From: Alentia gelatinosa
Lineage: Eukaryota > Annelida > Polychaeta > Phyllodocida > Polynoidae
NCBI GenBank assembly: GCA_950022655.1
Contig: OX465584.1
Location: 63,490,841-63,554,840 of the forward strand
Direction: 5' to 3'
DNA length: 64,000 bases
The position numbers were made by a program, and so were the translations under genes. How positions within the stretch are numbered: position 1 is the first letter of the stretch; the number at the start of each line of letters is the position of its first letter. A model generated the notes under the pieces. The model did not search any database. It worked only from the letters and a program-made list of their open reading frames with translations, and was not told the DNA's origin. Shown piece by piece: positions 19,512 to 48,336 of the stretch.

Positions 19512-19526
19512 TCTAAACATCACTCA

Positions 19527-22565: not shown

Positions 22566-22582
22566 TCATCTTGATCTCTCCA

Positions 22583-27140: not shown

Positions 27141-27155
27141 GCTGAGATTTCGATT

Positions 27156-27569
27156 TTAAAGCCCAATACACATCTACCGATTCAGGATTGAACGATTAGT
27201 TCCCAAATCTTATAGGAGTCGGTGAACTTGTCCCAGGCAAATTACATAGTATCTCGGCCTGTGTCGGCCATCCAATCAATCCGTGGTCCCAATCAAGTGC
27301 CATTTACAAACGTCCTGTTGTTGGCGACTAGATTTATCAAAATGTTGATAAACCTTTAGCCACAGATTTAGGAATATAGAAACCGGCGACAAAATAACAT
27401 CTGAAGGAGGTGGTTCACTAATTATTGCCTGACCCTTGCCTAACTGTGCTACATCTACGACTACGAACGACTCCGTTAGGATGCCTCGCCTGAGACAAAT
27501 TGCCGTCCGTTTGTCGCCGACAAAGGTACATAAATGTTCCGAAATCGGTAGATGGGCACTGGGCTTTAA
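27156..27569. mobile_element. MITE with TTAA target duplication
   Basis: Ends agcccaatacacatctaccg and inverted cggtagatgggcactgggct lie between TTAA at both ends, as in piggyBac or Kolobok elements. It sits in the foldback minisatellite, since right flank cagcagtacagaatctcag is array sequence. A half copy is at 31440-31540. Confidence 0.75.
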
Positions 27570-28275: not shown

Positions 28276-28386
28276 CCCTCCAGCAGATCACTTGGTTTCC
28301 CCCCCACGCCGTGGTCCGCGGGGTGTCTGCAGGCAACACGCTGGTCGCGAACACCGCTCAGAAGTCGGCATCGTGAAGGGGTTAAC

Positions 28387-28821
28387 TGAGCGGTATGGCG
28401 CGCCGTTCTGCACATGGTCAGGTCGTCAATAGTCCGTCCATGGAATCAGTGTAAAACTCATTCCGTCTATGGAATGCCACCAAGAGATATATAAACATAT
28501 AGTTCATCTATTATTCCGTCCACGGAATGGTTTTGTTTTCTCCACGAAATGGGTTTCATAAAATGGCTTTTCTTCATGAAATGGCCTTTTTTGTGTGCAA
28601 AACGACCCTTCTTCTTACAATATGGGGTTTCATGAAATGGCTATTTTTCACGAAATTACCCTTCTTCTAACGAAACGAGATAAAATCAGTCGTAGACTCA
28701 TTTCTTGGACGAAATCAATCGTAGACTCATTTCTTGGACGAAATCAGTCGTAAACTCATTTCTTGGACGAAATGAGTGGTAGACTCATTTCTTGGACGAA
28801 ATCAGTCGTGTCCAGAACGGC
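28387..28821. repeat. Inverted arms around short tandem repeats
   Basis: gtatggcgcgccgttctg (about 28395-28412) pairs with cagaacggcgctccatag (about 28804-28821) at 15 of 18 positions. Between them lie gaaatgg-rich repeats and a 29-bp repeat gtagactcatttcttggac (28690-28808, four to five units). Confidence 0.6.
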
Positions 28822-29199
28822 GCTCCATAGTATGAACGGCACACCTCTAAACTGTATACCTTCTGGGTATACACAGTGGCCATACCGCCCCAGGCTCACC
28901 CGCTCTCATGCTGTATACACGGCTCATTCCACCTGTTATCGCTCAGGGTAAGTCTCACAGAACAGCGAGATAATACGAGAGTCAGCTGATAATGTGGACC
29001 GCCAATCGAGTGCATATGACAATGGTGGGAGAAGAATTTCCCTGTAGATTCTAGGCGCTTAGAAATCTGAAATCAAAGTGTTTTAAATCTGTCGGTTCTT
29101 GGTGGCATTTCAAATGCCTTTCACCAATCTTGCGTCGTTATTCGAGAATAATCAGCTGGTGTGATTATAGAGTGAAGTGGCATTAAAATCAGTTCCATT

Positions 29200-29915
29200 T
29201 CCATCGGCCAATGGAAACGGGCCTTTCGAGGAACTCATATAATCGGTGCCAATTTCATCGGCCAATGGAAATGGGCCTTTTGTGGAACTCCTATTATTGG
29301 TGCCATTTCATTGGCCAATAGAAACGGGCCCTTTGAGGAACTCATAAAATCTGTGCCATTTTAATCGGCCAATGGAAATGAGCCTTTGGAGAAACTCATT
29401 TAATCGGTGCCAATTTGCTTTGGCCAATTGAATGAGGCTTTGTGAGCCGAATTTCCCTGCATCTCTCATATCTATACCAATGGCATTTTCAGGTTAAAAA
29501 TTTGAGTCTCGCTGCTGAAATCAAAGTATTTTAAATCTGTTGGCTGTTGACAAAGTTGGTGCCACTTTTATCAGCCAATGGAAATGGGTCTTTGGAGGGA
29601 CTCATATAATCTGTGCCATTTTCATCGGCCAATGTAAACAGATCTACCAAAGAACTCATATAACTGGTGCAATTCTTATCAGCCGATGGAAATGGGCCTT
29701 TCTAGGGACTCAAATAATTGGTGCCATTTTTATCGGCCAATGAAAACGGGCCTTTCGAGGAACTCTTAACAGCGGTGCCATTTTTATCATTATATGGAAA
29801 AGGGTCTTTCGAGGAACTCATGTAATCGTTGCCACTTCCATCGGCCAATGGGAAGAGGTCTTTTAAGGAAATTATATAATCATTGCCTTTTTTGTCGGCC
29901 AATGGAAACTGGCTT
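29200..29915. repeat. 54-bp minisatellite, about 12 diverged units
   Basis: Units of atcggccaatggaaatgggc, ctttcgaggaactcatataa and tcggtgccattt. A break at about 29440-29530 holds an unrelated stretch. Confidence 0.85.
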
Positions 29916-30014
29916 CACAGATGACTCTGGCTTAGTGAGAGGCTCCCAGGCAGAATGCACTCCGTGGAAGGCAGGGGGCGCTCGGCCGCTCCCATAATGC
30001 AATGCACGTGAGAG

Positions 30015-31300
30015 GGAAACCCATGCTGCTACTCCAACCTGCCCCCATTACTCCCCCCACCACCCAGCCACCCTCCACCCATATCCCTCTACTCCAACCT
30101 GCCCAATCACTCCTACCACCACCACCCAGCCACCCTCCACCCATATCCCTCTACTCCAACCTGCCCAATCACTCCCCTAACCACCCAGCCACCCTCCACC
30201 CATATCCCTCTACTCCAACCTGCCCCATCACTCCCCCCACCACCACCCAGCCACCCTCCACCCATATGCCTCTACTCCAACCTGCCCAATCACTCCCCCC
30301 ACCACCACCCAGCCACCCTCCACCCATATGCCTCTACTCCAACCTGCCCCATCACTCCTACCACCACCACCCAGCCAACCTCCACCCATATGCCTCTACT
30401 CCAACCTGCCCCATCACTCCCCCCCCCCACCACCCAGCCACCCTCCACCCATATCCCTCTACTCCAACCTGCCCCATCACTCCCCCCACCACCACCCAGC
30501 CACCCTCCACCCATATCCCTCTACTCCAACCTGCCCCATCACTCCCCCCACCACCCAGCCACCCTCCACCCATTTCCCTCTACTCCAACCTGCCCCATCA
30601 CTCCCCCCACCACCACCCAGCCACCCTCCACCCATATCCCTCTACTCCAACCTGCCCCATCACTCCTACCACCACCACCACCCAGCCACCCTCCACCCAT
30701 ATCCCTCTACTCCAACCTGCCCCATCACTCCTACCACCACCACCCAGCCACCCTCCACCCATATCCCTCTACTCCAACCTGCCCAATCACTCCCCTAACC
30801 ACCCAGCCACCCTCCACCCATATCCCTCTACTCCAACCTGCCCCATCACTCCCCCCACCACCACCCAGCCACCCTCCACCCATATGCCTCTACTCCAACC
30901 TGCCCCATCACTCCCCCCACCACCACCCAGCCACCCTCCACCCATATCCCTCTACTCCAACCTGCCCCATCACTCCTACCACCACCACCACCCAGCCACC
31001 CTCCACCCATATCCCTCTACTCCAACCTGCCCAATCACTCCCCTAACCACCCAGCCACCCTCCACCCATATCCCTCTACTCCAACCTGCCCCATCACTCC
31101 TACCACCACCACCCAGCCACCCTCCACCCATATCCCTCTACTCCAACCTGCCCAATCACTCCCCTAACCACCCAGCCACCCTCCACCCATATGCCTCTAC
31201 TCCAACCTGCCCCATCACTCCTACCACCACCACCCAGCCACCCTCCACCCATATCCCTCTACTCCAACCTGCCCCATCACTCCTACCACCACCACCCAAA
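30015..31300. repeat. 59-65-bp minisatellite, about 21 units
   Basis: ctctactccaacctgcccca recurs with steps of 59, 62 or 65 bp; differences are gains and losses of CAC triplets. A 464-codon frame runs through but reads PPPP/LLQPAPS-type repeats in any frame and has no gene signals. Confidence 0.95.
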
Positions 31301-31439
31301 TCGCCCGGAATCAGCTGGAGTCGGCCAGACTTGCCCATTGAAAACCTTGTAGCTCGGAACCGTGTGGTCGTCGCCTCTGGCCGGCCGGCCCTGTAAAAAC
31401 CAGCCAGCCGCCTCTGAGCGTCGATTTCGTGGATCACGT

Positions 31440-31540
31440 GCTTTAGGATGGCTCGCCTGAGACAAATTACTGTTCTTTTGTCGCAGACAAAGGTACATCA
31501 ATGTTCCGAAATCGGTAGATGTGCATTGGGCTTTAGACTC
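31440..31540. mobile_element. Half copy of the TTAA MITE
   Basis: ctcgcctgagacaaatt, cgcagacaaaggtacatc and aatcggtagatgtgcattgg match 27485-27569; it ends in ggcttta. Confidence 0.65.
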
Positions 31541-32560
31541 GCTGAAGTCATCCTTGTCTGATGGCTATGGGCAGCATGCAGCAGTCAAACCACATCCTGT
31601 CTGGGTGCTTGAGACTCGGGCCACGTGAATGTGATTAACGGTTTGTTTTGGCGGCTCCGCGCAGCCTCTCCCGCCTATGTTAGGCTCAATACATCAACGT
31701 CAGGCGTGCACCAAGCCTATTTGTCGCTGTCTCCCTCTCACCCGCGCTTCATTTCTCTCCTCCTTCACAGGAGATGTATTTCCGGTATCGCTCGGGGTGT
31801 CTGTGACTTGTAACGTCGGGTAGAATTAGAGGAAAACTGGTTCGGGGTGAAAGAATTTCAAACTTACAAGGTGAGGATGATTAGAGTGACTTATCGAGGC
31901 TTATTCACCCGGAACTTGTTTCCCTATAATACACGGAAACAGAGTTTGCTATATATGGTCATAAGCAAAGTAGTTTTGCACTATAGATAGGAGCGTAAAC
32001 AAACTTTGAAAGTATATCTGATTAAAATTTATCAAATCCACTTTGGAGCCATCCCATAACCCTATATACAGAGCAGTAAGGACTTGCATATCCAAGTTCA
32101 TGAGATCAGCATTTATATCCCATTTGATGAGTTACAAATGCTGCAGGCTGTGGTGTGGCATTAGATGCAGCGCAGCCTTGGTGTACTACTTTTGCACAGA
32201 TATACTTCCAAAATCGGTCTATACCTGTTTTGTGTATTGTAAACCTTCAAATTTTGATTGAACTGGCGATCTTTTAACTCCGATTGAGTGGCAAGCCTTA
32301 TCGAGTAACTACAATGTCATACTCGTTAAACAGATCTAAGGTACGATCTGATTGGTCTAGATTTCATCACGTGATATCCTCGATAATGAAACAACCACAC
32401 TAGGTATGAGGCACAGTCATTACATTTTTAACAGCCGTATGTATCTAAGGAGTGTTCAGCTATAAGTTTATAATAATGATAATAATAAGAGAAAACGTGG
32501 TTACTTAGCCCATAGGAAAGACCGTTCGAGGTCTTTTGATGCCATGAATAAGTCCCGACA
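31541..32560. other. Intron 1, no recognised feature
   Basis: No repeat family or coding segment recognised. Confidence 0.35.
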
Positions 32561-32576
32561 CCGCAGGAGGAGGGAC

Positions 32577-32735
32577 ATATCTAGCGTCAGTAGCCAGGAT
32601 ATCTGTATGGAGAGTGTTGGGAATACTGGAGCTATTAAAACAGCGCCAGGAATCCAACACCATTACCGATTGTACCAGTCCCTGTATCCCAACGAGGAGG
32701 GAAGCCACAGAATGCAGGGACTGGAGCCAGTCTAG
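32577..32735 (-). repeat. Inverted copy of the 53-bp array unit and its flank
   Basis: Inverse of about 18600-18765: tagccaggatatctgtatgg, gcgccaggaatccaacacca and cagggactggagccag. It has one array unit instead of about 14, so the array at 17.9 kb expanded from such an element. Confidence 0.8.
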
Positions 32736-32759
32736 GTCTACATGTACGGTCCTTGATTA

Positions 32760-33167
32760 GGCCACTCAAAAAAACCAACTTGTTTCTCATCACCAAGCCA
32801 TGAAAAATATGACAAGGGCGCTTTTTTTTTTTTTTGCTGGATCAAAGATGGCTTAAAAGTGTCATAAAATGGGCTTTAGACATACAGTAAAACCCTGCGT
32901 AAGTGGTCACCCTCCGCTCCAGGCCAAAGTACCCGCTTATGCGGGGTGTCTGCATATGCGGGGTTTTCAGATTCATACTGTTTATACATTGAAAGCATCT
33001 CTGGCATGAGGAGCTTTAATTTGATACTAAATACACATACTTTTTATAATTTCTATCAAGGTTCATCTTATTTTAACAAAAAAAAAAAAAAAAAAAAAAA
33101 ATCTTCTAAAATTGTTTTTGCAGATGCGCGCGGTGATGAGAAACAAGTTTGTTTTTTTTGAGTGGCC
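32760..33167. mobile_element. MITE with TTA target duplication, carrying a nested family K element
   Basis: ggccactcaaaaaaaccaac at the left is inverted at the right (gtttgttttttttgagtggc), followed by pairing of tgtttctcatcacc. TTA lies on both sides, as in PIF/Harbinger insertions. The interior holds a family K element (about 32884-32971) and a long A run (33079-33102). Confidence 0.75.
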
Positions 33168-33331
33168 TTATTGAACGTGCCCTAGACTCAGGGCAGAGGC
33201 TCAGGGTGTGATGTTGAGAGGCTCAGTTGGCAGGTGTGACCAGTCCACCTCGGGGTTATTTTCTGCGGGGCTGTGATCCTGGAAGCATCCGTGAACAGGT
33301 CACTCGGTCAGCTCCTGGAGGTATTCCAACA

Positions 33332-33392
33332 CGTGCCTAATTCCCGGTGCACGTGAGCACCGTGAGCCGGGAATTAGGTCAGACACGTGGTG
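33332..33392. repeat. Imperfect inverted repeat bounded by CACGTG
   Basis: cacgtgcctaattcccgg and gccgggaattaggtcagaca-cgtg form arms around cacgtgagcaccgtga. Three CACGTG cores lie within 60 bp. Confidence 0.6.
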
Positions 33393-34140
33393 GCCGTTAA
33401 GTGGGTCAGTGTGCGGGTCACTGCGGGAACAGGGTTAATACAGCCCGGTCACTGCGCCACTCCGAGCATTGTTTTCGTGCAGTGAGCCTCTGAGTCCTGA
33501 GAATGCCTGGAGGCATTCCCCTGACGGATCCTGTGTGTCGTTGAATAATCCAGGATATGTCCTAGAAATGATCCTCGGACCGTCCTTGGTGAAATGTCGT
33601 TGCATAAACTAGTAAATCCTACAGCCAGGACGAGTGAAGGACAAGATCAAACATAGGCAGACAAAAGTCGTTTCATTACAAAATCCTGAAGATGGGATTT
33701 CTCCTCCAAATTGTCCCAACTTATCCAAAATTGTCCTCCAAGTAGGACAGCTAGAGGGCAGTCCTAGATGAATCTAGTTCTCCAAATATAACAAGGTGTT
33801 ATTTTGACTGTAATCAGCAATCTTTCTCAAAAATGGATGGTTTAGATCTTATGAGAAGGACTGAGTGTTATTTTGAGGACAAGAAGAAGCCTTTAGACGA
33901 TCTTGATGATCGTAGATTTATGCAATGATTTTGACTGGATCCTGGGAATTATAAAGCAGAACGTGTATGACCTATCATAGAATTCGTTTCATGAATCTTG
34001 TCACTGTCCCTTGAGTCAGGACGGATTCCTATATCATTGAATAATCCTACGACCACCTGGGGCCATTTAATAATCTAGGATCCTAAATGTAGACTGTTTT
34101 CTGTATGCCATAGACACACAGGGACGATGTGGGTCAACTT
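33393..34140. other. Intron 1, weak inverted similarity only
   Basis: tgaataatccaggatat (33542) and cattgaataatcctacg (34036) hint at element ends of family N. A gaatgcctggaggcattc hairpin at 33502-33518 matches the core of the 35-bp minisatellite. Confidence 0.4.
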
Positions 34141-34925
34141 TATTCAACACTTATGAACAACCTTATGGATGGCTGATACTGTCTTAACGGAGGAGCTTAA
34201 AAATTATTAAATGATAACCATTGTACAAGGTACAGAAAAGGGTCTTTATGTAAAATCCTAGATTATTCAACGGGGTGCTGGGTCATAGACAATGTCCTCT
34301 CTATTGATAAAGCAATACTCAGTTATTTCTCATAAACCCCAATCAAAGATTTTACCACAAAATTGCTGAGTAAAAACCAGCCATCTGCTCCTAGGAGTTG
34401 ACTCTACGCAATATCCTCGCATGTGCTCGGATATTACAACTCCTCGGAGCATACGGCCGCTTTTATCTGAAACTGGTCAATGTTCTGCATCAACAGAACA
34501 TTGGATTAAACCAGAATATAATAAAGATGATATCTAGGATTCTCATCATAATAGCAGATTTTAAAAGACTTACTTAAATTGAAATAAAATTGAGATTTTA
34601 CTGAGGACAATATGTATGGTGTGTTTTGACGATCCAGTTGGTACCATTATGTGATTCCTTTCTACTTTCTCATTATAAACGTACCGACCGTACAGTATCA
34701 AAGTATCAGCAGTTGTTGCCTACATCCTCACCCAAATATCCCAGCTGTTTAATAATGTAGGATTGTACATGAAGACCCTTTTCTGTACCTCGTACGAGGG
34801 TTACCGTTTCATACTTTTAAAGTTTGTTCACCAAGACAGACTTAGCCGTCCATAACGTCGTCCATAAGTATGATATAAAGTTAACCCACATCTTCCCAGG
34901 ACTACATGTATGATCCTAGATTATT
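34141..34925. mobile_element. Dispersed element N, inverted pair
   Basis: caaggtacagaaaagggtct (about 34228) and its inverse agacccttttctgtacct (about 34765) face each other, each with a tagattatt(c/a)aac edge and a ttatgaac or ccataa block. 34270-34740 between them is unassigned AT-rich sequence. Confidence 0.6.
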
Positions 34926-35575
34926 AAAGAGGAAAGCAACAAGTTTTGGTTAAAGTCGTTGTTCTCCACGAGTTTGATGTGGAGTGATATGAATGAGGCG
35001 ACAGCCGAATGAATATCATTTGGCATTCAAACGAGTTGGAGAACAACGATTTTGACCAAAACGAGTTGCTTTCTGTATTTATCTCATCCCTGTACACACT
35101 AAAAGAATGAACGACACACAGGATATAAACCATAAAGAACGGACTGCAATACTCATAGGGGCATGAAGAACGAATTCCCAATGTAAAGCCAATGAACGTG
35201 GCGACAGCCTGAAGAATATCATGTAGCATTCAAACTGGGTATATGACGTCATAGATAAATAGCCCATCGTGCGCTAATTCTAAGGACGATGCACAGGATA
35301 TAAACCATAGAAAATGGACTGCAATACTCATAGGGGCAATGTTAAGTCTATGGGAGAAAAATACCAGGGGTGAGGTATAATAAAGAAGAAACCAACGAGT
35401 TGCTCTCTGTATTTACCTCACCCCTGTACACACTAAAAGAATGGACGACACACTGGATATAGACCATGGAGAACGGACTGCAATACTTGTAGGAGCATGG
35501 AGAACGAGTTCCCGATGTTATGTCTAGGGGACAAAAATATGAGGTGTGAGATATAGACTTTAACATGTATTCCAT
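34926..35575. mobile_element. Cluster of three MITE family A copies
   Basis: tctgtatttatctcaccc or close variants, followed by ctgtacacactaaaagaatg and the gaacggactgcaatactc segment, recurs at about 35075, 35275 (partial) and 35405. Confidence 0.7.
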
Positions 35576-36400
35576 TGATATTGATTATATCATGGACGGT
35601 CTATTCTCTTTATAAACGGTCCATGATTTTAATGTTCCTCCCGGTTGTTATGTTGCTGCATTTTCATCATTTGATAGAACATGCTGGCACCATGGGACAA
35701 AGATTCCAGGGGTGAGATAATAAACGGGCCACTGCACTGCACCTGCTTGCCCCTGAAACTGTCCTCAGTGGTCGAGTGCCTTGCCAAGATCTCAATAAAT
35801 CAATGTGTTGCACCAACACGAAATACATGTCGCTTCCTCGTGGGCATCATGTATGAGCCGGGATACATTTACAGTTTATATAAGCCGCACTCATATGACA
35901 CCAGTGTTTAGGAGAAGCACCAGAATACCCGGTAATTGAGAGGCGGCATTGTTTGCATCGAGGAGATGTCTCCTTGTCTGCAGGAGTACATCATTTGAAG
36001 GGGGAGATGGGCGTTAGTGGGGGATTATTTTCCAAGATAAAGAACAAGTGTGGTCTACAGGGTATAAGTGTGCCTGTATCCTGGGCCAAGGATTCTTGGA
36101 ACACCGACCATTAGGTGTCACTACATCAAAGGGACCCGCGACATTTTAAAACCAAATGAACGAAGTCATCATTGTGGCTTTGTTACCTATCTCCATCGGG
36201 GAAACTCTGGAAAATAAAGTTGACCCAGACTGCCATCACTCTCACTAAATAAAAAAACAATTTGGCAATTGGAAAAAAATCCAGAAAAGGTGGGGGGTCC
36301 TGCTCTACCACTCAGGCTTGGTATCTCCCCATGCACTTATCTAACCACTCACAACAAACATTGTGGGTCTGTTGGGCAGTAACCCACCTATCACCCAGGC
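35576..36400. other. Intron 1, no recognised feature
   Basis: One more gtgagata edge at about 35712; otherwise nothing recognised. Confidence 0.35.
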
Positions 36401-36665
36401 AACCAGCCAGTTCTACACCCTGCCACCCACCCAGCCAACCAGCCAGCCAGTTCTACATTCAACTACCCACCCACCCAGCTAAACAGCCAGGTCTACTCCC
36501 TCCTACCCACTTAGCCGACCAGCCAGTTCTACACCCACCCACCCACCCACCCAGCCAGTTCTACACCCTCCAACCCACCCAGCCAACCGACCAGCCAGTT
36601 CTACACCCTCCAACCCACCCAGCCAACCAGCCAGTTCTACACCATCCTACCCACACACCTAGCTA
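36400..36665. repeat. Degenerate 36-40-bp minisatellite
   Basis: About seven units of agccagttctacaccctcc and aacccacccagccaacc. Confidence 0.8.
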
Positions 36666-37654
36666 GTTCTCATTCTGTTCAGAACTACACAACCCCAACA
36701 GGTGCTTCTATGTCATCAAAGAGGCTACGCTAACAGTTAGTCTCAATGAAATGTCCCCACAACATTAGCCAGTGTACCCGGCCCTGTCCCATACAGGGCC
36801 GGGTTCCTCTGCCATAGAGCCCTCCACCAGGTCGTCATTTTACACTGGACGCACTCTGACATGAATGGAAAAAAATTGAATCGATAAATATATACCCATT
36901 GTCTTTGCCAACCTTCAAAACAGCTGCCTCTTACTTTATAACAGTGTATTTAGAGGTAGTTTTCCAGTGGAGCTTGGCTGGTTCTCAAATCAAGCCATTT
37001 TGTTCAGTCTTCCTCGCTGGTTCCCAAACTTCACAGTGACTCGGCAATTAACAAAGAACAGCTGTTCATCCCTAAATGGAAATGAGGGGTGAAAACTTAA
37101 CCTCCCATAACATATATCATTGCCGCACTCAATAGCCCAGAATAGAAATCTGTGCTAAAAAAAAAAAAAAAAAAAAATCCTTGAAGACCCGCGCAAGTCT
37201 AACCTCCCCGCGCTCGCTGGTGCCGATCCTGTCGCTGGTTCCCCGTGGCTGTCCTCTCTGTCTTTGTTTATTTTGGTCAGATTCCGGCGGTAAAGCTTCG
37301 GGCAGCGGCGTCCTTGGCAAACTCAACCACTCACCATTTACTCATTATGTGACTTTGTTTTTAGAGAGCGGGATATAAACATCCAGCTCTTTCACGTGCT
37401 CAGATCCGTCTACAACCCTCTTCACACTGGTATGCTTCAGAAATAACACCCCCTTTGATTCAATCAACGGGAACATTAACAAACTGGGCCACCGGTTAGT
37501 GTGATCGTCTCACAAAGGGGTATCCCCTCTCTGCGTCAAAGCACAAAAACCGATTTGTTTATCATTATATACCGGTGCCTGTATGTTATACAAATACCAA
37601 CCTCTGCTAGGGTATTGGCGTTAATCATATTTCACCAGAGTGAGCTGGAATATA
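36666..37654. other. Intron 1, no recognised feature
   Basis: Contains an A run at 37157-37178 and unremarkable sequence. Confidence 0.35.
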
Positions 37655-37920
37655 GGGAACAGAGTGATTGCTAGTTCCGCTAAGATCCGCCTGGAAATTG
37701 TAAGATAGCGCCACTGTAGTTGGAGGCAACCACTGTTATCAGTTGGTTTAATCTATAGATGATATTGAAACAAAGTTCAAATTTCTCTGTGGCAAGCCCA
37801 TCAAAATATTTTGAATAAACTCCATTTATAATTGATCCCGCCACCTGGTGTTTTGGATCGCGTCAGGGGGCAAGATGGCCGCCTACATAGTATAATGGCT
37901 ATGTGACCTATAAAAATCGT
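37655..37920. mobile_element. Dispersed element J, uninterrupted copy
   Basis: agagtgattgctagttc, ttgtaagatagcgccactgt, cccgccacctggtgttttg and gggggcaagatggcc appear in the same order as at 58470-59075, where element I splits it. Confidence 0.75.
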
Positions 37921-37969
37921 ACCATCAAACTTTGAATACGTGTTGTGATTGGTTGAAGAAGTTAACATT

Positions 37970-38355
37970 TAAACGAGTTAGAGAACGACTCATTTTACCA
38001 AAACGAGTTGCTTTCTGTATTTATCTCACCCCTGTACACACTAAAAAATCGGACGACACACAGGATATAGACCACGGAGAACGGACTGTAATACTCGTAG
38101 GGGCGAATTCCCAATGTTAAGCTTATGAACGAGGCGACAGCCTGGTGAATATATTATCATGTAGCACTTAAACGAGTTGGAGAACAACAACTTTGACCAA
38201 AACGAGTTGCTTTCTGTATTCATCTCACCCCTGTACATACTAAAAGAATGCGTGACACACGGGATATAAACCATGGAGAACGGACTGCAATACTCGTAGG
38301 GGCATGGAGAACAAGTTCCTAAAATTAAGCCTATGGGACACAAATACCATGGTTG
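37970..38355. mobile_element. MITE family A, two adjacent copies
   Basis: gagttgctttctgtatttat (or tcat) followed by ctcacccctgtaca occurs at about 38005 and 38205; both are followed by the acggact(g)taatactcgta block. Confidence 0.7.
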
Positions 38356-38613
38356 AGATAATCAGCTGTTGGTAACGCCACAGTAGGTGGATATGGAGCG
38401 GACCTGACTGGACCTGACATCGTCTTCACGTCTGACGGAAGTGCCCGGGCTTATCAAACCGGAAGTCCAGGCCGTTACCATGACGACGGAGGATGGGGCC
38501 CTCTGACGACGTCAGGGCACATCAATCACCTGGAGGACTTTGATGTGGCCGACATGGTTCTCGCCTCTGAGGCAGGGTGCTCGCTGGACGGGGGGACACC
38601 TGTGCTGATTAAT

Positions 38614-39358
38614 CAGGGACCAGTTTCACTAGTTACGGGCTCATAGCGAATGAAAGACCGAAATAACAGGGACCAGTTTCACTAGTTTCAGGCTCATAGC
38701 AAATGAAAGACCGAAATAACAGGGACCAGTTTCACTAGTTTCAGGCTCATAGACAATGGAAGAGAGAAATAGCTGGGACTCGTGTCGATATTTTCTGGCT
38801 CATAGCAAACGGAAGACCAAAATAGAAGGGACCCGTTTCACTAGTTTCGGTCTAATAACAAACATAAAACCAATATTGCAGGGACTCGTTTCAATATTTT
38901 CGGGCTCATAGCAAATGGAAGACCAAAATAACAGGGACCTGTTTCACTACTTTCAGCCTCATAGCGAAGGGAAGACCAAATTAGCAGGGACCCGTTTTCC
39001 CTAGTTTCGGCCTCATAGTAAATGAAAGACTGAAATAGCAGGGACCTGTTTCACTAGTTACAGGCTCACAGCGAAAGGAAGACTGAAATAGTAGGGAACT
39101 CTTTCACTAGTTTCGGGCTAATAAAAATTGGAAGACCGAAATTGCAGGGACCTGTTTCACTAGTTTTAGGCTCATAAAGAATGGAAGACCAAAATAGCAG
39201 GGACTCCCTAACTAGTTTCAGGCTCAAAAAGAATGGAAGACCAAAATAGCAGGGACTCCCTAACTAGTTTCAGGCTCATAGAGAATGGAAGACCGAAATA
39301 GCAGGGACACCTTTCACTAGTTTCGGGCTCATAGCCAAGGGAAGACCAAAATAGCGGC
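38614..39358. repeat. 53-bp minisatellite, about 14 diverged units
   Basis: cagggaccagtttcactagt recurs at 38614, 38667 and onward, each with ggctcatagc and gaagaccgaaatag. The first 24 bases of the unit match the terminal repeat of the MITE at 51953-52257. Confidence 0.9.
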
Positions 39359-39420
39359 ACCAATAGCGGAAACAAAAGTCTTGTTTCATAAGCTTTGTTG
39401 CTGTTGAGATCCTCATTCCA

Positions 39421-39442
39421 TTCACTATGCTAGCATAGTGAA
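39421..39442. repeat. Perfect 22-bp palindrome
   Basis: Half-site ttcactatgct is followed by its exact inverse; the surrounding attcc/ggaat extends it imperfectly. Confidence 0.8.
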
Positions 39443-40200
39443 CGGAATATTAAAAAATCAATATCTAATAAATAATCTAATAATTCAAATTATTCCTCTA
39501 CCAGACTCCACCCCTAAACCTCATTCAACCATGACCTCCTGTACCGCTACCAGACTCAATCTTTCAATTAATAGTCCTCACGCCACTAGTCCCTGGGCCA
39601 AGACCCCAAATTTTCATTTCGGCTGCCCCCCCTAGAAACATTTGTTTTATTGTTTTATCTTGTAGATCCATCCTTCTAGTTAACATTTCCACTTGTTGTC
39701 ACTCTGGCAAGTGGTCGGATTACCATGACAATAGCTGTTGAAGAGACCTCCCTTCAAAATGCCTGAACGCCTATAACTCTGAGTGCTGAAAACCATTACT
39801 TGGTTCTGTGTTCTTTTAAGTATTACAATGACTCGTTAGGTTAAACTTTGGTATTGGACTCCATTTTATGGAGAATAAAATCATGTCTTCTCAGTGGCCT
39901 ACAGCAGCCTTTTTCATGTGTACTATTTATGTCCCCTTTACAGATCTGCAATTTTCCACATATTTGTTTCTTAAATAATCTAAAGACTATAAAATCTTTT
40001 CATATGCAGGTTTTTGCATGTGACCATATTGGGAAATCATGAACATCTTCAGGTATTTTTAGTGTTTTGTGATATCAGGATCCAGGTATATTACCAATTT
40101 TGCTACCCCTGCCACTTACGTTGTTTGACATATCAGACAGCCCATACTAAAGACATATAGTATCTAAAGACTGAAGAACCTTTTTATATGCAACGTTCTT
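39443..40200. other. Intron 1, no recognised feature
   Basis: Nothing recognised. Confidence 0.35.
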
Positions 40201-40216
40201 AACCCATTTACGCTGG

Positions 40217-40270
40217 GTGATGCCTTGAGGCATCATCCAGGGCTGGCCGGGTGATGCCTTGAGGCATCAT
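40217..40270. repeat. Two copies of a gatgcc-ttga-ggcatc hairpin
   Basis: gtgatgccttgaggcatcat occurs at 40217 and 40251, with the ggctgg segment between. The same stem builds the 35-bp minisatellite at 6.9 kb. Confidence 0.75.
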
Positions 40271-40494
40271 TTCCAAAATATTCGTTTTTGTGAATAAAAT
40301 ACAGTATGTAGGTATAATAGCATATTTAATATTTCTATGTAAAATAAAGAATAATATTGAGGATCACATATCATGTCACGTGATGCAAAGATAAAATTAT
40401 CCCAATTAGGCCTCTATACCCGGCCTCTAGAGGTATTCAATGGCAATAGCACCCGGCTTCATGCCTGTGCTATTGCCGTGGGCACCCGGCGTGA

Positions 40495-41005
40495 TAGGGT
40501 CAATACGGGTGGAGTTTGTTACATGTCAAAGTCTTTTAAGGGTTGAGTTCTTAAAACAGGTCGGGTTCGTTACGGGTCAATTTTTTTATGGGTCAAGTTC
40601 ATTACGGATCAAGTTCTTAAAATAGGTCGAGTTTGTTACAGGTTGAGTTCGTTACGGGTCAAGTTATTAAAACGGGTCGAGTTTGTTACAGGTCAAATTA
40701 GTTCGTTACGGGTTGAGTTTTTATAATGGGTCGAGTTCTTCTCATGGGTTAAGTTTGTTATGGGTGGTTATATTAAAACGGGTCAAGTCGTTACAGAATT
40801 ATTCAAACGGGTCAATTTGTTACGGGTCAGGTTTTTGTGGGTCGAATTCGTTGCAGGTCGAGTTCTTAATGGGTCGAGTTCTTAATGGGTCGGATTTTTG
40901 CGGGTCAGGTTTTTATGGGTCGAGTTCACTATGGGTCGAGTTCTTAAAACGGGTCGAGTTCGTTACGGGTCGAGTTCGTTACGGGTCACGTTCTCCAGTC
41001 TTCAC
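40495..41005. repeat. Irregular gggtcgagttc array
   Basis: More than 20 units of gggtcgagttcgttac, gggtcgagttcttaaaac and variants; ends gggtcacgttctccag, like the arms at 19829-20374. Confidence 0.85.
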
Positions 41006-41693
41006 TGCGGACACTGAGGGTCTGTCAGCTCTGAGGGGCGGTGTGTGGGCCTCTGTTGCCTAATGGCCGCTCGTCTGAAGTCGCCGGGTAAACAAGCTGA
41101 GAGTGAGCTACACATGTTCCGACACGGGTTCACAGCTCGCAAATCTCAACATGACCACAGCTAACGTTTCTCTAACCCCCAACAGTTCAGAGAAGCTGAT
41201 TACCACAGGAGAGTAGCACCCAATGCGGGCCACAGGGAGCACGTGCTTAAATCTGTATCTGTTGTTGTAAAAATCTTTTCTATTTTCCAAATTTCTCTGT
41301 GGAGAGGTGTAAAATGAACCCGGAGGTGTCTAGACCTGACCCTTTTACCGTTTCCGGACATTGCAAAAAAAAATTTTCGGCCAATGAAAAGCGAGAAAAA
41401 TGATCACACGATCGACTGGACCAATCACGGTCGTGTTCTGTAGAGTTCTGATGAATAAATAAACGCCCAGAGCACAGGCAGCCTGATAGACATAGTCACT
41501 TGCTCGTTAGTCGCGAAGCCGTCTTGTACTACAAATTAAATCTGTATCTGTGAGATTTTGAAGAAAATGACTTAGAAGGGAAACCCAGGAGATGAAAATA
41601 ACTTGGTCTGTACTCCACCGAGTTTAACTGTGGGGTAAGACATAAAGCAGACAAGATATAAACTGCTTCCCAGGTCCATACAGGAACGTATAA
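41006..41693. other. Intron 1, no recognised gene
   Basis: Two CCAAT motifs (about 41381 and 41420) and a gaataaataaacgc segment lie close together, but no coding sequence follows. Confidence 0.3.
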
Positions 41694-41912
41694 GGCCTGG
41701 CGTCCACCTACTACGATATGGCTCCGATATGGTCTACGATGCACCTCCCGATGAAAAATCAAAATCGCGTCGGAAGGTTACCTAATATCGGGGCAGTTGG
41801 CCACGTTTCTGCGATTAGACACCGATAAAAACCCCATACAATGCGTGGTGGATTGGCATGTCTAGATATATGTCTACGATTTTGCACCTTCCCGATATGG
41901 CACCGATTTTGA
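41694..41912. mobile_element. Harbinger-like MITE family L, right end missing
   Basis: Left end ggcctggcgtccacctacta and interior as in 9038-9318; it stops where family B begins. Confidence 0.75.
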
Positions 41913-41914
41913 CA

Positions 41915-42330
41915 TTTTAATCTCCATGTTGATATCTTGTCTGATCTCTGAAATCCTGGCTGCTGATTGGTCAATCGCATATGACATCATCTCGCATCAC
42001 TCTGCCACGGCCATGGGGTATTATTGTCCCTTTACGTGGGTGATCATTCAGTTGTTTATTCAATGTTATAAATGGAGATTTATTCGTTTCTACATGGGTC
42101 TGGCGAGTAATTTGGATTATTCTGATATTGTGATGCTGTTTTAATGTCCATGATAGGGGTGAGATAAATCCAGAACTGCACACGAATTGTAAAATAGACA
42201 ATTTTCCATCCATTTGGATATACCGTAATCATCACTCGGCTTTGCCTTGATGACAGTTGCGGTGCATCAAAACTCGTGGAGTATCGTTTATTTAAACGAT
42301 TCCCAATCCAGTTCTATATAATCATCAAGC
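41915..42330. mobile_element. MITE family B, copy 3 (inverted)
   Basis: Contains cctggctgctgattggtcaa, ggggtgagataaatccagaa and the foldback with the gagtatcgttta block. Confidence 0.65.
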
Positions 42331-42916
42331 TCGATATGTATTTTATAACACTTTGAGATCACCACATCTAAATTCTAATAAAATGTCATGTTTTTTTATT
42401 AAGATGAATTGTTAAATATGCCTTTAAACGTTAGTTTAAATTATTATGAAGCGGATTCTGGATAAAGATAGGTTTTTTGATGCTGGATATATCTTAGAGG
42501 CATATTGCTCAATTTGTTTTGAAAATTTAAACTCATGTCATTTTCCTGAAATTAATATATATTGATCTCTAAATGTCGAAGAACACATAGGTACATGTAA
42601 TTTAGAAATCGGGGGTCACCATGCTGGTTTTTGATTTAGAGACCAATATTATGATAAATATCTACTATTATGATAATTCTATAAGAGAATATATAGAAAT
42701 TACGAATAAGAAGTTACGGTACCTTTCACATAGTAAACCCCATGTACTAAGGACTTTATATTGGTGATGGGTATTTATCTTGAGAGTTGATTATGTTAAT
42801 AGTTGAGTAATTATTGTTGATGAGTGTACCAAAACTGTGAGGGCACTCATACCGGCGCGAGCTGAAGTCCTCGCAGTATAAAGACACCAAATAAAAAAAA
42901 AAATAAAAAAAATTGT
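42331..42916 (+). mobile_element. Probable retroposon 3' end with A-rich tail
   Basis: The last ~100 bp (cactcataccggcgcgagct, gcagtataaagacaccaaat, then a run of A with T) looks like the 3' end of a LINE. 42331-42790 is AT-rich and unassigned. Confidence 0.4.
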
Positions 42917-43996
42917 CCTCAAACCTTCACTGAATATAGTGGATGCATACTCATGTATTAAAGCATGATTTTGAAAGATTTGAAGAAAAAAATATTTATC
43001 AGTACTTTTCCTATGCAAATCAAGCAAATGTAAACCGGCCTATTTTGCCTAATAGAATTGAATAAACTAGACAAAACATTTTTTTCATTTAGAATTAGAA
43101 TGAAACAGAATGAACAAGTTTTGACTGATATAAATTGAAAATATTTAGAAATCACCGGGTGGCGCCTTCGTGAATTGTAAGATATGCCTTCAAGTTTAAC
43201 GTTGTCAGGCAACACGTACCTAGTAACCACGCTGGGGCAACACAATGAGTTGGGATTGGTAAGTAGAGATTTCTTATCTCAAACATGCAAGGAATGCCAT
43301 ATATCTGAGGTTTTCCACACCGTACAAACTTCCTGCAATCCACGACACTCCTTGTAGCATGGTCGTCAGTCCTATTTCTAGATCCGAGTGCCATGTTTAA
43401 GTATTCAAAGTGGATACGGTATCAGAGGTCAACCCCATCTAGAAGTAGAAACTACTGCGGGATATCACCAACTGTGTCCTAACGTCGTAGTTGAGTTTAA
43501 CAACAACTTGTCTCAGCAGAAGGAGGGAGGTGGGGTACTAGACTCTAGTACAGCCCGTTTCCGCCAGGGCCAGGGCACTCAGGCTTGCATACTGGGACTG
43601 TTGTGCGCTGCCATCTTAAGGCAGGGATTCCTGCCCGATTCCCAGCATTCAACTTGAAAATGGCAGTCCGCTGGTCCCAGCTTCGAATACTGACATACCA
43701 GGAATCAGTTTTTCGAACATGCGCATAACATGTAAACAAACGAGGCCGTCGTAGTTCCCCTTTGTCAAACTGATGCTATAAATATAACAACGAATCACGA
43801 TATCCCTTCCGCGCGTAGGGGACTGGCCAATAGTGTCCATGCTCTGTTAGACCTTCACGTACCGTAACCCGAAGGCGGCGCGGTGCGTGGATGGACTAGT
43901 GGGGTACTGGAGGCTTCCACACCAAAAGGATTGTTTCCCTTTAAACACTAGCGACCAATCAGAAAGGAGCTGCTTAGAGCTAAAACCTCCTCTATA
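42917..43996. other. Intron 1, no recognised feature
   Basis: Short open frames only. Confidence 0.35.
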
Positions 43997-44349
43997 GGGA
44001 GCCAAAGTGAACCCGCTGAAATGACAGATACCCGTTTACAAAACACCATTTCCGGATATAGGCGCTCAGTATTTTAACAATAAGGTTCGAGATTATATAT
44101 ATGTGTCATTCTCCAATCTTTTAGATCCATATTTTTTATAAACTTAACAACTGTCATCGTAGCTTTGAGACGGAGTTATTCAGAGTCGATAGTAGTAAAC
44201 TATACTTCAAAAGTAACAAACAAGACCAAAAACAAAAGTCTAGCCTCAAACCCCCATAGGTTTAGCACTAAGCCTCGTTCTTACTGGCCACCGGAAATGG
44301 TGTTTTGTAAACGGGTATCTGTGGTTTCAGCAGGTTCACTTTGGCTCCC
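43997..44349. mobile_element. MITE family I, copy 1
   Basis: Terminal inverted repeats of about 60 bp starting gggagccaaagtgaacccgc and reaching ccatttccgg; flanked by TATA and TATT. Second copy at 58576-58925. Confidence 0.85.
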
Positions 44350-44504
44350 TATTAGACTACATGGGGAATATTATGAAGGAACTGTATCAAGATCCATAGC
44401 CGCTGAAAATATGCCATGAATGGTATGCTACCAGTAGCTATGGATCAAGTGAGGTTCAAATTTCACTGACTAACTGGCTAAACTTTCTTATTTCATCTCC
44501 CGCT

Positions 44505-44785
44505 GAGTAACTATATTGTAAAACTGGATGAGACCCACAAATCAGGTTTTGATTTTATCCTAACCTGTCTCTTCGATTTTAGAATATTACGTGATGACAA
44601 TTCTGTATGCCACTAGTGGCATATAAAACTCCGTATGCCAGTCAGCGTGGCATACAGAAACTCGATGTTAAACCTATGGGATTTTATATTAGGGGTAGGA
44701 TAATCTCCAATACTCCATGGGCGTTGAATACGAGTTTACAATGTGAAGTCCATGGGGGATAAATATGCCAGTGGTGAGATAAATG
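44505..44785. mobile_element. MITE family F copy 2 and a family C fragment
   Basis: ttttatcctaacctgtctc ... ggggtaggataa (44552-44703), then tactccatgggcgttgaata and tggtgagataaat. Confidence 0.6.
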
Positions 44786-44818
44786 ATGGATATGTATAGG
44801 GAAGAGATAGTGGTTAAA

Positions 44819-44950
44819 TAGACAATAATCGATTGTTTTGTAAACAGGCGGCAGCTAACCACGAGAGGTTGCCATGTAGTAATACACGAGCATTAACGAG
44901 TGTATTACGACGACAACCTCGAGTGGTTTACAGAGCCGCTTGCCCACAGG
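44819..44950. mobile_element. MITE family E, copy 3
   Basis: tagacaataatcgattgttt, aggcggc and inverse gccgcttgcccac; centre acgagcattaacgagtgtat. Confidence 0.65.
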
Positions 44951-44984
44951 GACAAATATTTTCTCTACAGCACAAAGTGACCAT

Positions 44985-45935
44985 TTTCCCCGTATACCAT
45001 GGCTTTGAGAAAACAAAATTATGTATTTTTGGTCCCAAATCTAAATTGAACAAAATCAACCACAATTTACCTGCAAATAAGGCCTATCAGAGAGGGACTG
45101 AACTACCCCATAGTTTGAGTTATAACTACCTAGGAATCCTATTAGATGAAACCTTGACTTGGGAAAAATGTATTAACGAAACCGTACACAAAGTAAATCA
45201 CAAGTTATTCAAGCTAGCAAAAATACGGAAATATATAACTCAAGATACCTGTATCAAAATCTACAAATGCATGATTGCGCCAATTTTTGACTACCCAAGT
45301 TACTTTGTTGCCGGAGCTAACAAGTTAAATCTGTCAAAGTTACACACAACGCAGAATAGAGGACTAAGAATATGCACATGGTCGAACGTCAGGGAAATAT
45401 CCTCGAAGAGATTGCATGATATATGCCACATGCATACTATTGATTATAGAAGTCGATACTTGAACCTGCTGTATATGCGCAAAGTAGCAAATAGTATTGA
45501 TCCGATAGAGAACCCCAGGACTAGGGGGCAGGAAAATATACTTATCAAACTTGATAGACGGAAAACTAACTTCTTTAAGAAAAGCCTGATCTATGAGGGA
45601 AAGAACAATGGAATTGTTTACCTAAGGAGATACAGAATGGTTCTTTGTATGGTTATAAAATATTCATCCGATCTAAATTGTCCTCTGTATTAGATACGGA
45701 TAGTTAACTTTATTGTATAGTTTATGTAGTTATCAAGGCATAAGATTCTCATGATTTGGAGCCCTAATCATCCTCATTACCTCATCCAACACTGTATTTA
45801 TTGTAAAATCCCAGCCGTGTTATGTTACCTGACTGGGAATCTACACAGATCTTAGAGTGGCCAGAATACCTGCCATGGCAGAGGCCTTTTATGTACCCTT
45901 TGTGCAAATAGAAAAAAAGAAATAAAAAACCTTAT
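44985..45935 (+). mobile_element. LINE, 5'-truncated: RT C-terminal region, 3' UTR and tail
   Basis: The open frame to 45690 encodes KTKLCIFGPKSKLNK, YNYLGILLDETLTW, then a long helical region and KKSLIYEGK. YLGxxLDxxLxW is the conserved motif after the RT catalytic core of non-LTR retrotransposons. The C-terminus is frameshifted or stops early, and an aaaaaaagaaataaaaaa tail follows at about 45911. The best preserved of the five LINE pieces. Confidence 0.8.
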
Positions 45936-46089
45936 ATAATTTTGGAAACAAGTATCATTCACTTCATGACAACTGGTCGTGCAAGTAAACCAGCTTCATT
46001 TGATGCTGAGCTATAGCCAGCCTAAAGAAAAGATTTAAAAAACCCAAACAACCCAGCCGCTTGTACACCTGCCTTTGGGGGGCCACAAA

Positions 46090-46250
46090 CATCCCGCACC
46101 AGTAGGTCAATGAGGTATACCCGTCAGAGGTGATTGGTCAGAGTCAGCTGGGTAATCCTCTCTGACACTAAGACACTGGGCCTCTGCGCCTTAACAATGT
46201 CACAGTGTTGGCATGCGGATAGTAAAGGGATAGTTTATGCAACATGTTAT
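46090..46250. mobile_element. Dispersed element S, 3' part
   Basis: gtcaatgaggtatacccgtc, gtgattggtcagagtcagct and tagtaaagggatagttt match 21760-21885. Confidence 0.6.
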
Positions 46251-46429
46251 TATAGCTTCATATAACCTCTTCCTAAATCACATAAAGAGCATTTGAACGT
46301 TTCCCACGCTCATTAAAGTCAGAATGATTTTAGTAGATTGTAGAGTTTCCGTGAGTATAAAGAAAGAAATTGATGAGTGTTTGGTCTGTGTCTTCGTTCG
46401 CCATCGAATTTGGAGTGCGCAGTAATCTG

Positions 46430-46900
46430 AACGAGTCAATAGACGTACATACTTACTGTATATGTTTATGAGGAGATATGTCAACAAAAATGTTACTAAG
46501 ATCGATAATCCGAAGACAAGAGGTCAGGCAAAAAGAACGATTAATTTAAAGAGACCAAGGCCTAATTTCTTTTAAAAAAAACCGTTATATGAAGGAGGAC
46601 AAAACTGGAATAATTTACCACTAGAAGTGCAGGAAGCATCTACTATATATTTGTACAAAAATTTGTAAAGAGTAAAAGTAGAACTATGTATGAGTGATTA
46701 TGACAAGTATGTATATTAGTCCAGCTGACATTATACGTGAATCATCTCATCACATGACATCCTATCACATATAATGATATCACCTTGTATATATGTATAC
46801 ACGATTGGTGTAGTTGTCGATGCAAAAAATGTAAAAAACCTGCTACTCGCAGACTGCCTGTAATACCTAATGTTTAAATTAAAAAAAAATTATAAAAAAA
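46430..46900 (+). mobile_element. LINE remnant: ORF2 C-terminus and A-rich tail
   Basis: Encodes KIDNPKTRGQAKR, a stop, then KPLYEGGQNWNNLPLEV, similar to the ends of the other LINE pieces. Tail aaattaaaaaaaaattataa at 46876-46900. Confidence 0.6.
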
Positions 46901-46904
46901 TAGC

Positions 46905-47100
46905 CGAGTGAATATTATGAGGCACTCCAAACGAGTTGGTGAATGGGTACTGAGACCAACCACGAAAATGTTCCTGATTTTATCTTGGAAATATTTATCT
47001 GTTCATCACCCGTTGAGTATGAGTTACCGTACTCGCAAGCCTGTTAAGAACGAGTTCCTAATGTTAAGACTATGGCGGTTTATACTAGGCTAAGATAATA
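46905..47100. mobile_element. MITE family A/C fragment
   Basis: agccgagtgaatattatgag, ccaaacgagttggtgaa and gagttcctaatgttaagact are shared blocks. Confidence 0.5.
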
Positions 47101-47585
47101 TATGATTCTCCCGCAGTCAACATCATTCCAATCAATATCCCCAATGATGTAAAACGTTTACTCCATCGTGATCATCAAAGTATTTGTCTAGCTAGAATTG
47201 TTATCCATCCACTACGAATCATGTCAGGAAAGAATTGCTGACACAAAGGCTTCAATCCTCGTAGTGTCAGAAAACATGGATATAGAAAAAAAGAAATCCC
47301 CCTAGCAGAATGTTATATGGAGATGTGGTCAGTGCCCCTGAATGAAATCTGTTCCGAGTTGTTTTAGTTGGAAATATTCATCGAGTCCGAAGAATACATT
47401 TAACATAATATAAAGTTTTGGGACTAAAAACAAGCCCTTTCACACAGATCTAAGACACATTCAGTAAAGACACCAGAGTTGTATACACCTACAATGAATC
47501 AGTGGGAGTGAAACGATCCACTCCCAGTATTTAAACATAATACTCGGGGCACCTCACTGTACCCCATCCATTGTACAACGTTAAA
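47101..47585. other. Intron 1, no recognised feature
   Basis: Nothing recognised up to the exon-1 array. Confidence 0.35.
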
Positions 47586-47641
47586 GTCCCTGTCCCCTTC
47601 CCGCTGCCCCTGAGGCTCATGTTAATATACGTAGGACGTAC

Positions 47642-47722
47642 CTGACTTGCCAACTCCTGGCTGACCCAGTACGACGAGCCTGGTATCGGTCGCAGTCCCC
47701 TGCCGCTGCCCCTGAGGCTCTT
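47642..47722 (-). pseudogene. Exon-1 copy with lost start codon
   Basis: Same layout as exon 1, but the start codon is AAG and one base is missing in the N-terminal part. The P-loop (GGAGTTGGCAAGTCAG) and donor gtacgtc remain. Confidence 0.7.
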
Positions 47723-47830
47723 GTCATTATTCCAGGGACTTACCTGACTTGCCGACTGGCTGAACCATTTTATTATAGAGAGGACTTACCTGACTTGCCG
47801 ACTCCTGGCTGACTGATACTGAGGACTTAC

Positions 47831-47911
47831 CTGACTTGCCGACTCCTGGCTGACCCAGTACGACCAGCCTCGTATCGGTCCCCGTCCCCTTCCCGTACCC
47901 CTGGGGCTCAT
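47831..47911 (-). pseudogene. Full-length exon-1 copy with a 1-bp frameshift
   Basis: The copy retains the ATG, the beta-strand segment, the P-loop and donor gtaagtc but is 81 bp instead of 82. A single base lost in the glycine codons puts the ATG out of frame with the P-loop. Confidence 0.7.
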
Positions 47912-47932
47912 GTTATTATACAGAAGACTTAC

Positions 47933-47999
47933 CTGACTTGCCGACTCCTGGCTGACCCAGTACAGTCCCTGTCCCTTTCCCGCTGCCCCTGAGACTCAT
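47933..47999 (-). pseudogene. Second exon-1 copy with open frame and the same five-codon deletion
   Basis: ATG, 22 codons and one base, then the donor gtaagtc. It differs from the copy at 48109-48175 by a few substitutions (Gly to Ser in the glycine run) but has the identical 15-bp in-frame loss, so the deleted form was itself duplicated. The P-loop is intact and the phase matches exon 2. Confidence 0.7.
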
Positions 48000-48108
48000 G
48001 TTATTATACACAGAACTCACCTGACTTGCCGACTCACTGAACTAATGTTATTATACACAGAACTCACCTGACTTGCCGACTCCTGTATGACTGATACATA
48101 GAACATAC

Positions 48109-48175
48109 CTGACTTGCCGACTCCTGGCTGACCCAGTACAGTCCCTGTCCCCTTGCCGCCGCCCCTGAGACTCAT
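48109..48175 (-). pseudogene. Exon-1 copy with open frame and intact P-loop (five codons deleted)
   Basis: ATG, 22 codons and one extra base, then the donor gtatgtt. It reads MSLRGGGKGTGTVLGQPGVGKS minus five codons of the first beta strand found in the real exon (an in-frame 15-bp loss). It has the same splice phase as exon 1 and could join exon 2 in frame, but a missing beta strand should harm folding. It may be an alternative first exon or only a decoy donor; no separate promoter is evident. Confidence 0.7.
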
Positions 48176-48254
48176 GTTATTATAGGGAGCTAACTGTTAC
48201 AGAGGACATACCTTGCGGAATGGCTGACCCCATGTTGATATACAGATGACTCAC

Positions 48255-48336
48255 CTGACTTGCCGACTCCTGGCTGACCCAGTACGACCAGCCTTGTATC
48301 GGTCCCCGTCCCCTTGCCGCCCCCCCTGAGGCTCAT
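48255..48336 (-). CDS. RERG: RERG-like GTPase, coding exon 1 (start codon and P-loop)
   Basis: Encodes residues 1-27 plus the first base of codon 28. It starts MSLRGGGKG and ends in the first beta strand RLVVL and the P-loop GQPGVGKS (residues 20-27), which binds the GTP phosphates. The donor at 48254 reads gtgagtc. The start ATG has A at -3. A second in-frame ATG lies nine codons upstream at 48363 (MRERVRADT), also with A at -3, and an in-frame TGA lies further upstream, so the protein may be 216 residues. The glycine-rich N-terminus is longer than in vertebrate RERG. Pro22 takes the place of Ras Gly12 (Ala in human RERG). This is the most complete member of a tandem family of exon-1 copies just downstream; it has full length, the gene's CpG-rich 5' flank and the right splice phase. 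Confidence 0.9.

Follow-up and report, generated by a model that had tools for sequence, protein, structure and literature searches.

Boundary-spanning repeats and a polynoid counterpart

Tandem repeats that span exon–intron boundaries are known from amphioxus under the name of "mirages", in Adh3 and in the globin genes BflGb6 and BflGb9; mirages have likewise been reported in PGBD5 and troponin C (PMC3902484). According to the available portions of these reports, AG/GT signals occur in many copies, the arrays vary in length, and reverse transcription polymerase chain reaction suggests that normal splicing is undisturbed. Here, we describe an array of this kind in a 64,000-nt stretch of contig OX465584.1 of the polynoid annelid Alentia gelatinosa (the whole stretch is henceforth called the window). 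It lies at the head of intron 1 of a RERG-type small GTPase gene, where ten tandem copies of the first coding exon follow the authentic one, nine of them with a 5′ splice donor. With a probability of roughly 80%, we take the array to be an ordinary boundary-spanning minisatellite seeded by RERG exon 1, most likely a neutral bystander, the copies of which are probably silent.

The structural marks of a mirage are present in the RERG array: a tandem unit of minisatellite size (41–103 bp among the donor-bearing units, with ten copies after the authentic unit, U0), an overlap of the unit with an exon–intron boundary (in U0), and splice signals in the copies (9/10). The amphioxus arrays, as far as their reports are available, resemble it in layout, in the copied splice signals of many units, in unit size (tens to about 160 bp) and in the concerted evolution seen within clusters. 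They differ in that the RERG unit begins at the start codon and takes in all of the first coding exon, and in that the RERG array shows a duplicated block and truncated units of several types. All mirage cases considered have a cephalochordate host, which the RERG array does not have; host lineage is, however, a property of the known cases and not of the structure, and the RERG array is a known kind of repeat in another lineage.

Other described systems share single features with it, judging from the accessible parts of the respective papers. In human segmental duplications, minisatellites have expanded at exon–intron boundaries, as here, and can alter splicing; unlike the RERG array, they are recent, variable between paralogues and transcript-supported, with an average unit of 30 bp (PMC2812944). 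Intron gain by tandem genomic duplication also duplicates an AG/GT junction, but there an exonic AGGT supplies both splice sites, donor and acceptor, of a newly formed intron, whereas the RERG copies lie inside an existing one (PMC3443670). A published annelid gene has intron 1 minisatellites with exon duplicates that are missing from the final transcript, which is a likeness to the RERG array; the inclusion of a donor in its repeats is not stated in the portion available. Among the titles and opening lines of abstracts in the open-licence literature on boundary minisatellites, no annelid mirage was found. The boundary-minisatellite literature drawn on comprises PMC3087553, PMC3902484, PMC12783039 and PMC2812944.

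The host gene

Four coding exons on the minus strand join in frame to specify a predicted product of 207 amino acids. The gene model rests on homology: the product matches the Pfam Ras domain (6.8e-42), its best chain in PDB is 2atv (RAS-like estrogen-regulated growth inhibitor; 3.3e-68), and the specifically named homologues among the best 120 of 4120 are mostly called "ras-related and estrogen-regulated growth inhibitor" or "-like". The features are as follows, with a slash marking the exon–intron boundary:

48255..48336, minus strand: authentic coding exon 1, 82 nt (MSLRGGGKGTGTDTRLVVLGQPGVGKS plus 1 nt, phase 1), joining in frame to exons 2–4
48249..48257, minus strand: authentic donor CAG/GTGAGT, matching the U1 consensus at 8/9 positions
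8133..48254, minus strand: intron 1, about 40 kb (GT at 48254–48253, AG at 8134–8133)
8076..8132, minus strand: exon 2 of the gene model, 57 nt
3732..3805, minus strand: exon 3 of the gene model, 74 nt
2210..2620, minus strand: exon 4 of the gene model, coding part up to the stop codon, 411 nt

The exon 2 acceptor had been placed at 8133 by the first-pass annotation of the window, and it is indeed there; more exactly, the AG occupies 8134–8133 and the first base of exon 2 is 8132. An upstream in-frame ATG at 48363 could extend the N-terminus of the exon 1 product by nine residues.

Anatomy of the exon 1 array

The authentic unit, U0, occupies 48336–48234, and the ten further tandem copies, U1 to U10, follow directly after it (48233–47585) inside intron 1. 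The complete unit of about 103 bp holds the start codon, exon 1, the donor and about 21 intron bases. Since the copy named U1 shares its name with the spliceosomal particle, we always call it "copy U1". Read directly from the sequence, the copies are:

48176..48233, minus strand: copy U1, short; donor AAG/GTATGT (GT at 48211); ATG in phase with exon 2, no P-loop
48088..48175, minus strand: copy U2, full type minus 15 nt; donor CAG/GTATGT (GT at 48108); ATG and P-loop in phase
48047..48087, minus strand: copy U3, short type A; donor CAG/GTGAGT (GT at 48067)
48000..48046, minus strand: copy U4, short type B; donor CAG/GTGAGT (GT at 48020)
47912..47999, minus strand: copy U5, full type minus 15 nt; donor CAG/GTAAGT (9/9; GT at 47932); ATG and P-loop in phase
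47810..47911, minus strand: copy U6, near full length, 1 nt shorter, which puts the ATG out of phase; donor CAG/GTAAGT (9/9; GT at 47830)
47769..47809, minus strand: copy U7, short type A; donor CAG/GTAAGT (9/9; GT at 47789)
47723..47768, minus strand: copy U8, short type B; donor CAG/GTAAGT (9/9; GT at 47743); ATG in phase, P-loop incomplete
47621..47722, minus strand: copy U9, near full length, 1 nt shorter, ATG changed to AAG; donor CAG/GTACGT (GT at 47641)
47585..47620, minus strand: copy U10, reduced to the N-terminal 36 nt and donor-less; the array ends here distally

The first-pass annotation had reported about ten extra copies of exon 1 in intron 1, nine with a donor, and had named four donor hexamers; position, unit anatomy and hexamers all agree copy by copy, U10 alone being donor-less. 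Variants of the hexamer are clustered in neighbouring units: gtatgt in copies U1 and U2, gtgagt in U3 and U4, gtaagt in U5–U8 and gtacgt in U9. Its statement that the P-loop is intact in most copies is true of the VGKS end (8/9 donor-bearing copies, all but copy U1) and not of the full G-x4-GKS motif, which is found, in any frame, in 4/9 (U2, U5, U6 and U9). It had also counted two copies with the ATG in the correct phase; there are four (copies U1, U2, U5 and U8), of which only U2 and U5 keep the P-loop.

The 5′ part of the exon is retained in U2, U5, U6, U9 and U10 and lost in copies U1, U3, U4, U7 and U8. Two junction shapes account for these losses: in short type A (U3, U7), the intron is joined into the CAGGAG region, and in short type B (U4, U8 and, by shape, copy U1), the position of the ATG is fused to a point near GGTCAGCC. 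Twice the units follow one another as full, A, B, full; the block U2–U5 is 84.3% identical to the block U6–U9 over 261 aligned columns. Pairwise identities among copies lie between 0.69 and 0.98, and individual units have indels of their own. Donor variants shared by neighbours and junctions of types A and B at equivalent places are as expected of tandem turnover.

Which unit is the authentic exon is decided by the stretch DTRLVVLGQPGVGKS, where the alignment shows a match with the RERG family. In frame with the ATG, it is encoded by U0 only: it is kept in U6, where the ATG is one base out of phase, and in U9, with AAG for ATG, while 15 nt of it are missing from U2 and U5, and the remaining copies are truncated. 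We take U0 to be the authentic exon because it is the sole unit with a complete beta-1/P-loop start in frame with the ATG.

The repetition of the core is not a matter of chance. Allowing at most three mismatches, the core word GTCGGCAAGTCAGGT has 10 matches in the window as against 0.93 expected (0/100 shuffles reach 10), nine of which fall in U0 and U2–U9, copy U1 being absent; the tenth is a three-mismatch match at 14693. Similarly, all seven CAGGTRAGT sites on both strands of the window belong to exon 1 or to one of its copies, with 1.23 expected (0/100 shuffles reach 7).

Two other readings of the repeat were rejected. Translated as a coding repeat, the array shows stops in each of the three minus-strand frames, and none of the stop-to-stop frames of at least 110 amino acids on that strand overlaps 47585–48336. 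Against a structured RNA, folding of the array does not surpass that of 20 shuffles (z −0.14), and Rfam gave no match at gathering score in the window.

Variability around the copied donor

Numbers of changes were estimated by the Fitch method from a rough neighbour-joining tree (29 columns), the units being aligned without gaps around the donor. In such an alignment copy U1 is out of register, apparently because it has lost 4 nt immediately before the donor; results are given with and without it, and more weight is given to the latter for that reason. Without copy U1, we count one change in the 13 exon columns −13..−1, three in the six donor columns +1..+6, three in the nine columns of the splice motif (−3..+6) and 15 in the ten intron columns +7..+16. 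Random columns equal the exon stretch in 0.14% of draws, the donor in 45% and the motif in 17%. With copy U1 included, the exon has nine changes in 13 columns (P 0.12), the donor three in six (P 0.13) and the intron 16 in ten.

The best kept part, copy U1 excluded, is, hence, the coding core with the P-loop codons, which ends at the donor, and not the donor hexamer itself. Over −13..−1, the short copies U3, U4, U7 and U8 show no difference from U0. That the core is also kept in copies lacking a start codon argues against selection on the copies for coding; its invariance could possibly come from repeated re-derivation of copies from the constrained authentic exon, and we leave its cause unexplained. 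In all ten donors GT, +5 and +6 are invariant, and the three inferred donor changes are confined to +3 and +4, positions that tolerate variation.

Among the long units, the mean difference amounts to 13% in the upstream exon and 30% in the intron, while the coding core (units within 47621–48336) is nearly invariant.

The first-pass annotation had compared the erosion of the splice sites with that of the N-terminal halves. The five losses of these halves reduce to the two junction shapes, which were apparently multiplied by block duplication, so that they represent few independent events.

Consequences of using a copy donor

For each donor, the spliced reading frame was read by script. When exon 2 is joined to the donor of copy U1, the main open reading frame (ORF) stops after 70 codons from the authentic ATG, or after 79 from the upstream ATG; with any later copy donor, it stops after 48 or 57 codons, respectively. 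Each copy ATG is itself preceded by upstream ATGs. Of the in-phase copy ATGs (copies U1, U2, U5 and U8), those of U2 and U5 alone lead to a P-loop protein, encoding MSLRG(G/S)GKGTGTVLGQPGVGKS in phase with exon 2, although without the five residues DTRLV just before the P-loop. Such U2 or U5 proteins could arise only from a start within the array, or if translation were re-initiated after the upstream ORFs. The proposal of the first-pass annotation that the copies could give alternative first exons is, at least from the same transcript start, unlikely to be productive, because the main ORF stops within 79 codons and the upstream ATGs come first.

Donor strength was scored as the match to CAG/GTAAGT, the U1 consensus, which may not be that of the host's own U1. 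By this measure, the authentic donor and those of U2, U3, U4 and U9 match at 8/9 positions, U5–U8 at 9/9 and copy U1 at 7/9. Most of the copied donors look usable, as the first-pass annotation had it. Several U1 small nuclear ribonucleoproteins (snRNPs) can occupy alternative sites, the surplus being removed later, according to the available portions of two papers; binding to the copies need not, therefore, mean their use.

Origin of the array and rival explanations

On the explanation we favour, a segment of about 103 bp, beginning at the start codon and ending about 21 bp inside the intron, would have been tandemly duplicated and then repeated within intron 1. A few internal deletions would subsequently have shortened some units, and a four-unit block would have been duplicated (U2–U5 and U6–U9), enlarging the array. 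The donors would have been copied passively along with the unit, as in the amphioxus mirages. U1 snRNP may bind several of the copies, with normal mRNA formed mainly from the authentic donor, and transcripts using a copy donor would be non-productive. Few deletions, block duplication and local homogenisation are the usual turnover of a minisatellite. The unit anatomy, the likeness of the two blocks, the homology-based gene model and the effects on the reading frame are shown; the order of events and the silence of most copies are what we infer.

Some observations weigh against this explanation. The copy donors of U5–U8 match the U1 consensus better than the authentic donor does, and strong intron-proximal sites can reportedly win such competition (older work by Eperon and others). 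With copy U1 included, the motif −3..+6 is low in changes (four in nine columns; column-permutation P 0.025, uncorrected, for one of four overlapping sets). In the long units (U0, U2, U5, U6 and U9), 1/26 columns vary in the exon stretch −26..−1 as compared to 12/56 in the upstream exon, 2/6 in the donor and 5/10 in the intron +7..+16, and this unevenness is not predicted by simple neutral decay of equal copies. The first-pass annotation had held that the donor end is the part most often kept, which chance decay alone would not lead one to expect; selection for the donors is not supported without copy U1 (one change in 13 exon columns versus three in six donor columns), and with it, the motif lends the idea weak backing.

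Packed into about 650 bp where a roughly 40-kb intron begins, nine donors, four of them matching at 9/9, could also function as decoys or docking sites, the copies binding U1 snRNP and thereby tuning the splicing of exon 1 or protecting the intron from premature polyadenylation (telescripting). The invariance of GT, +5 and +6, with changes at tolerant positions only, is in keeping with such a role, and so is the literature on multiple U1 binding to alternative sites and on telescripting, in the parts available. On the other hand, the coding stretch is more conserved than the donor once copy U1 is set aside, and three inferred donor changes are too few to demonstrate constraint; we consider the role unlikely. 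That a U1 snRNP docking platform has been selected at the intron head, which would hold U1 on the nascent transcript, prevent premature termination and set the frequency of exon 1 splicing, allelic copy number then tuning RERG output, appears decidedly improbable to us.

Copies serving as alternative first exons, to give RERG isoforms with other N-termini, would find candidates in U2 and U5, with their in-phase ATG and P-loop, and in the in-phase ATGs of copies U1 and U8. Yet, the products of U2 and U5 are without DTRLV and those of copies U1 and U8 without a complete P-loop, the main ORF ends prematurely when read from an upstream start, upstream ATGs stand before each copy ATG, and the unit contains no acceptor of the gene; we hold this to be extremely improbable. 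One amphioxus mirage was reportedly misassembled in a draft, according to the available part of its report, and an assembly artefact or a collapsed or expanded repeat has to be weighed here too. The copies differ from one another in sequence (to the extent given above) and in unit-specific indels, unlike mis-joined identical reads, and we hold an artefact to be very unlikely; the exact copy number of the array is in doubt. The passively copied minisatellite is the reading that we retain.

Phylogenetic placement of the GTPase

A protein tree was built from the window protein and 30 homologues chosen from the best 120 of 4120. The window protein groups with P0054 and P0118 (97/83), within a six-row set that also includes the annelids Paralvinella and Owenia as well as P0007 (92/84, below the tool's starred level), while 13 rows, including both Branchiostoma rows, form a separate deuterostome set (99/96). 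Identity to the window protein is 84% for P0054 over 141 columns (the exon 4 part) and 62% and 57% for the two Branchiostoma rows. The long branches of Owenia, Limulus and Tubulanus make the exact position in the tree unsure. The GTPase gene most likely groups, with moderate support in the protein sequences, with annelids and not with amphioxus; the resemblance to the amphioxus mirages would, therefore, be one of kind and not of host.

Other tandem repeats in the window

The RERG gene carries tandem copies at both of its ends, in a locus rich in tandem duplication. The coding end of exon 4, the stop codon and the 3′ flank are duplicated once (1947–2256), in three matched pieces 148–154 bp apart and 91–98% identical:

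2209–2256 and 2056–2103: exon 4 duplicate pieces, 98% identical
2179–2200 and 2031–2052: exon 4 duplicate pieces, 91% identical
2101–2182 and 1947–2028: exon 4 duplicate pieces, 91% identical

Arrays with a period of at least 10 found by Tandem Repeats Finder (TRF) cover 12,686 of the 64,000 bases (about 20%) in 35 merged intervals, several of more than 10 units, and include some low-complexity tracts. When the 24 TRF intervals of at least 100 bp were placed uniformly at random, at least one of the eight coding-exon ends was covered in 62% of 20,000 trials, a figure that speaks only to the rarity of an array over an exon end (it is not rare) and is no test of seeding. The RERG array is itself one of these 24, its TRF interval ending at 48184, short of U0.

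Close to exon 2, a 35-bp array of about 30 units (6924–7982) reaches to about 90 bp from the exon 2 donor on its downstream side, leaving that donor uncovered. Elsewhere, the window contains an interstitial telomere-like repeat with GTTAGG/GGGATA-type units (19970–20137) and a long degenerate array of CTC triplets in which several frames are open on either strand (54691–55959). Two open frames (44818–45693 and 11523–11975) resemble what we take to be the tails of retroelement reverse transcriptases; Pfam gave no match for either, and a protein search with the ORF at 44818–45690 retrieved no homologue at E 0.001.

Implications for splice-site choice

Should the copies be silent, a minisatellite that spans an exon–intron boundary can be tolerated outside chordates even with nine donors, several of them near-perfect, in competition, and the RERG array provides a natural assay of what marks a true 5′ splice site beyond complementarity to U1. 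If some of the copies are used, the length of a minisatellite would set the splice choice or the N-terminus of a growth-control GTPase.
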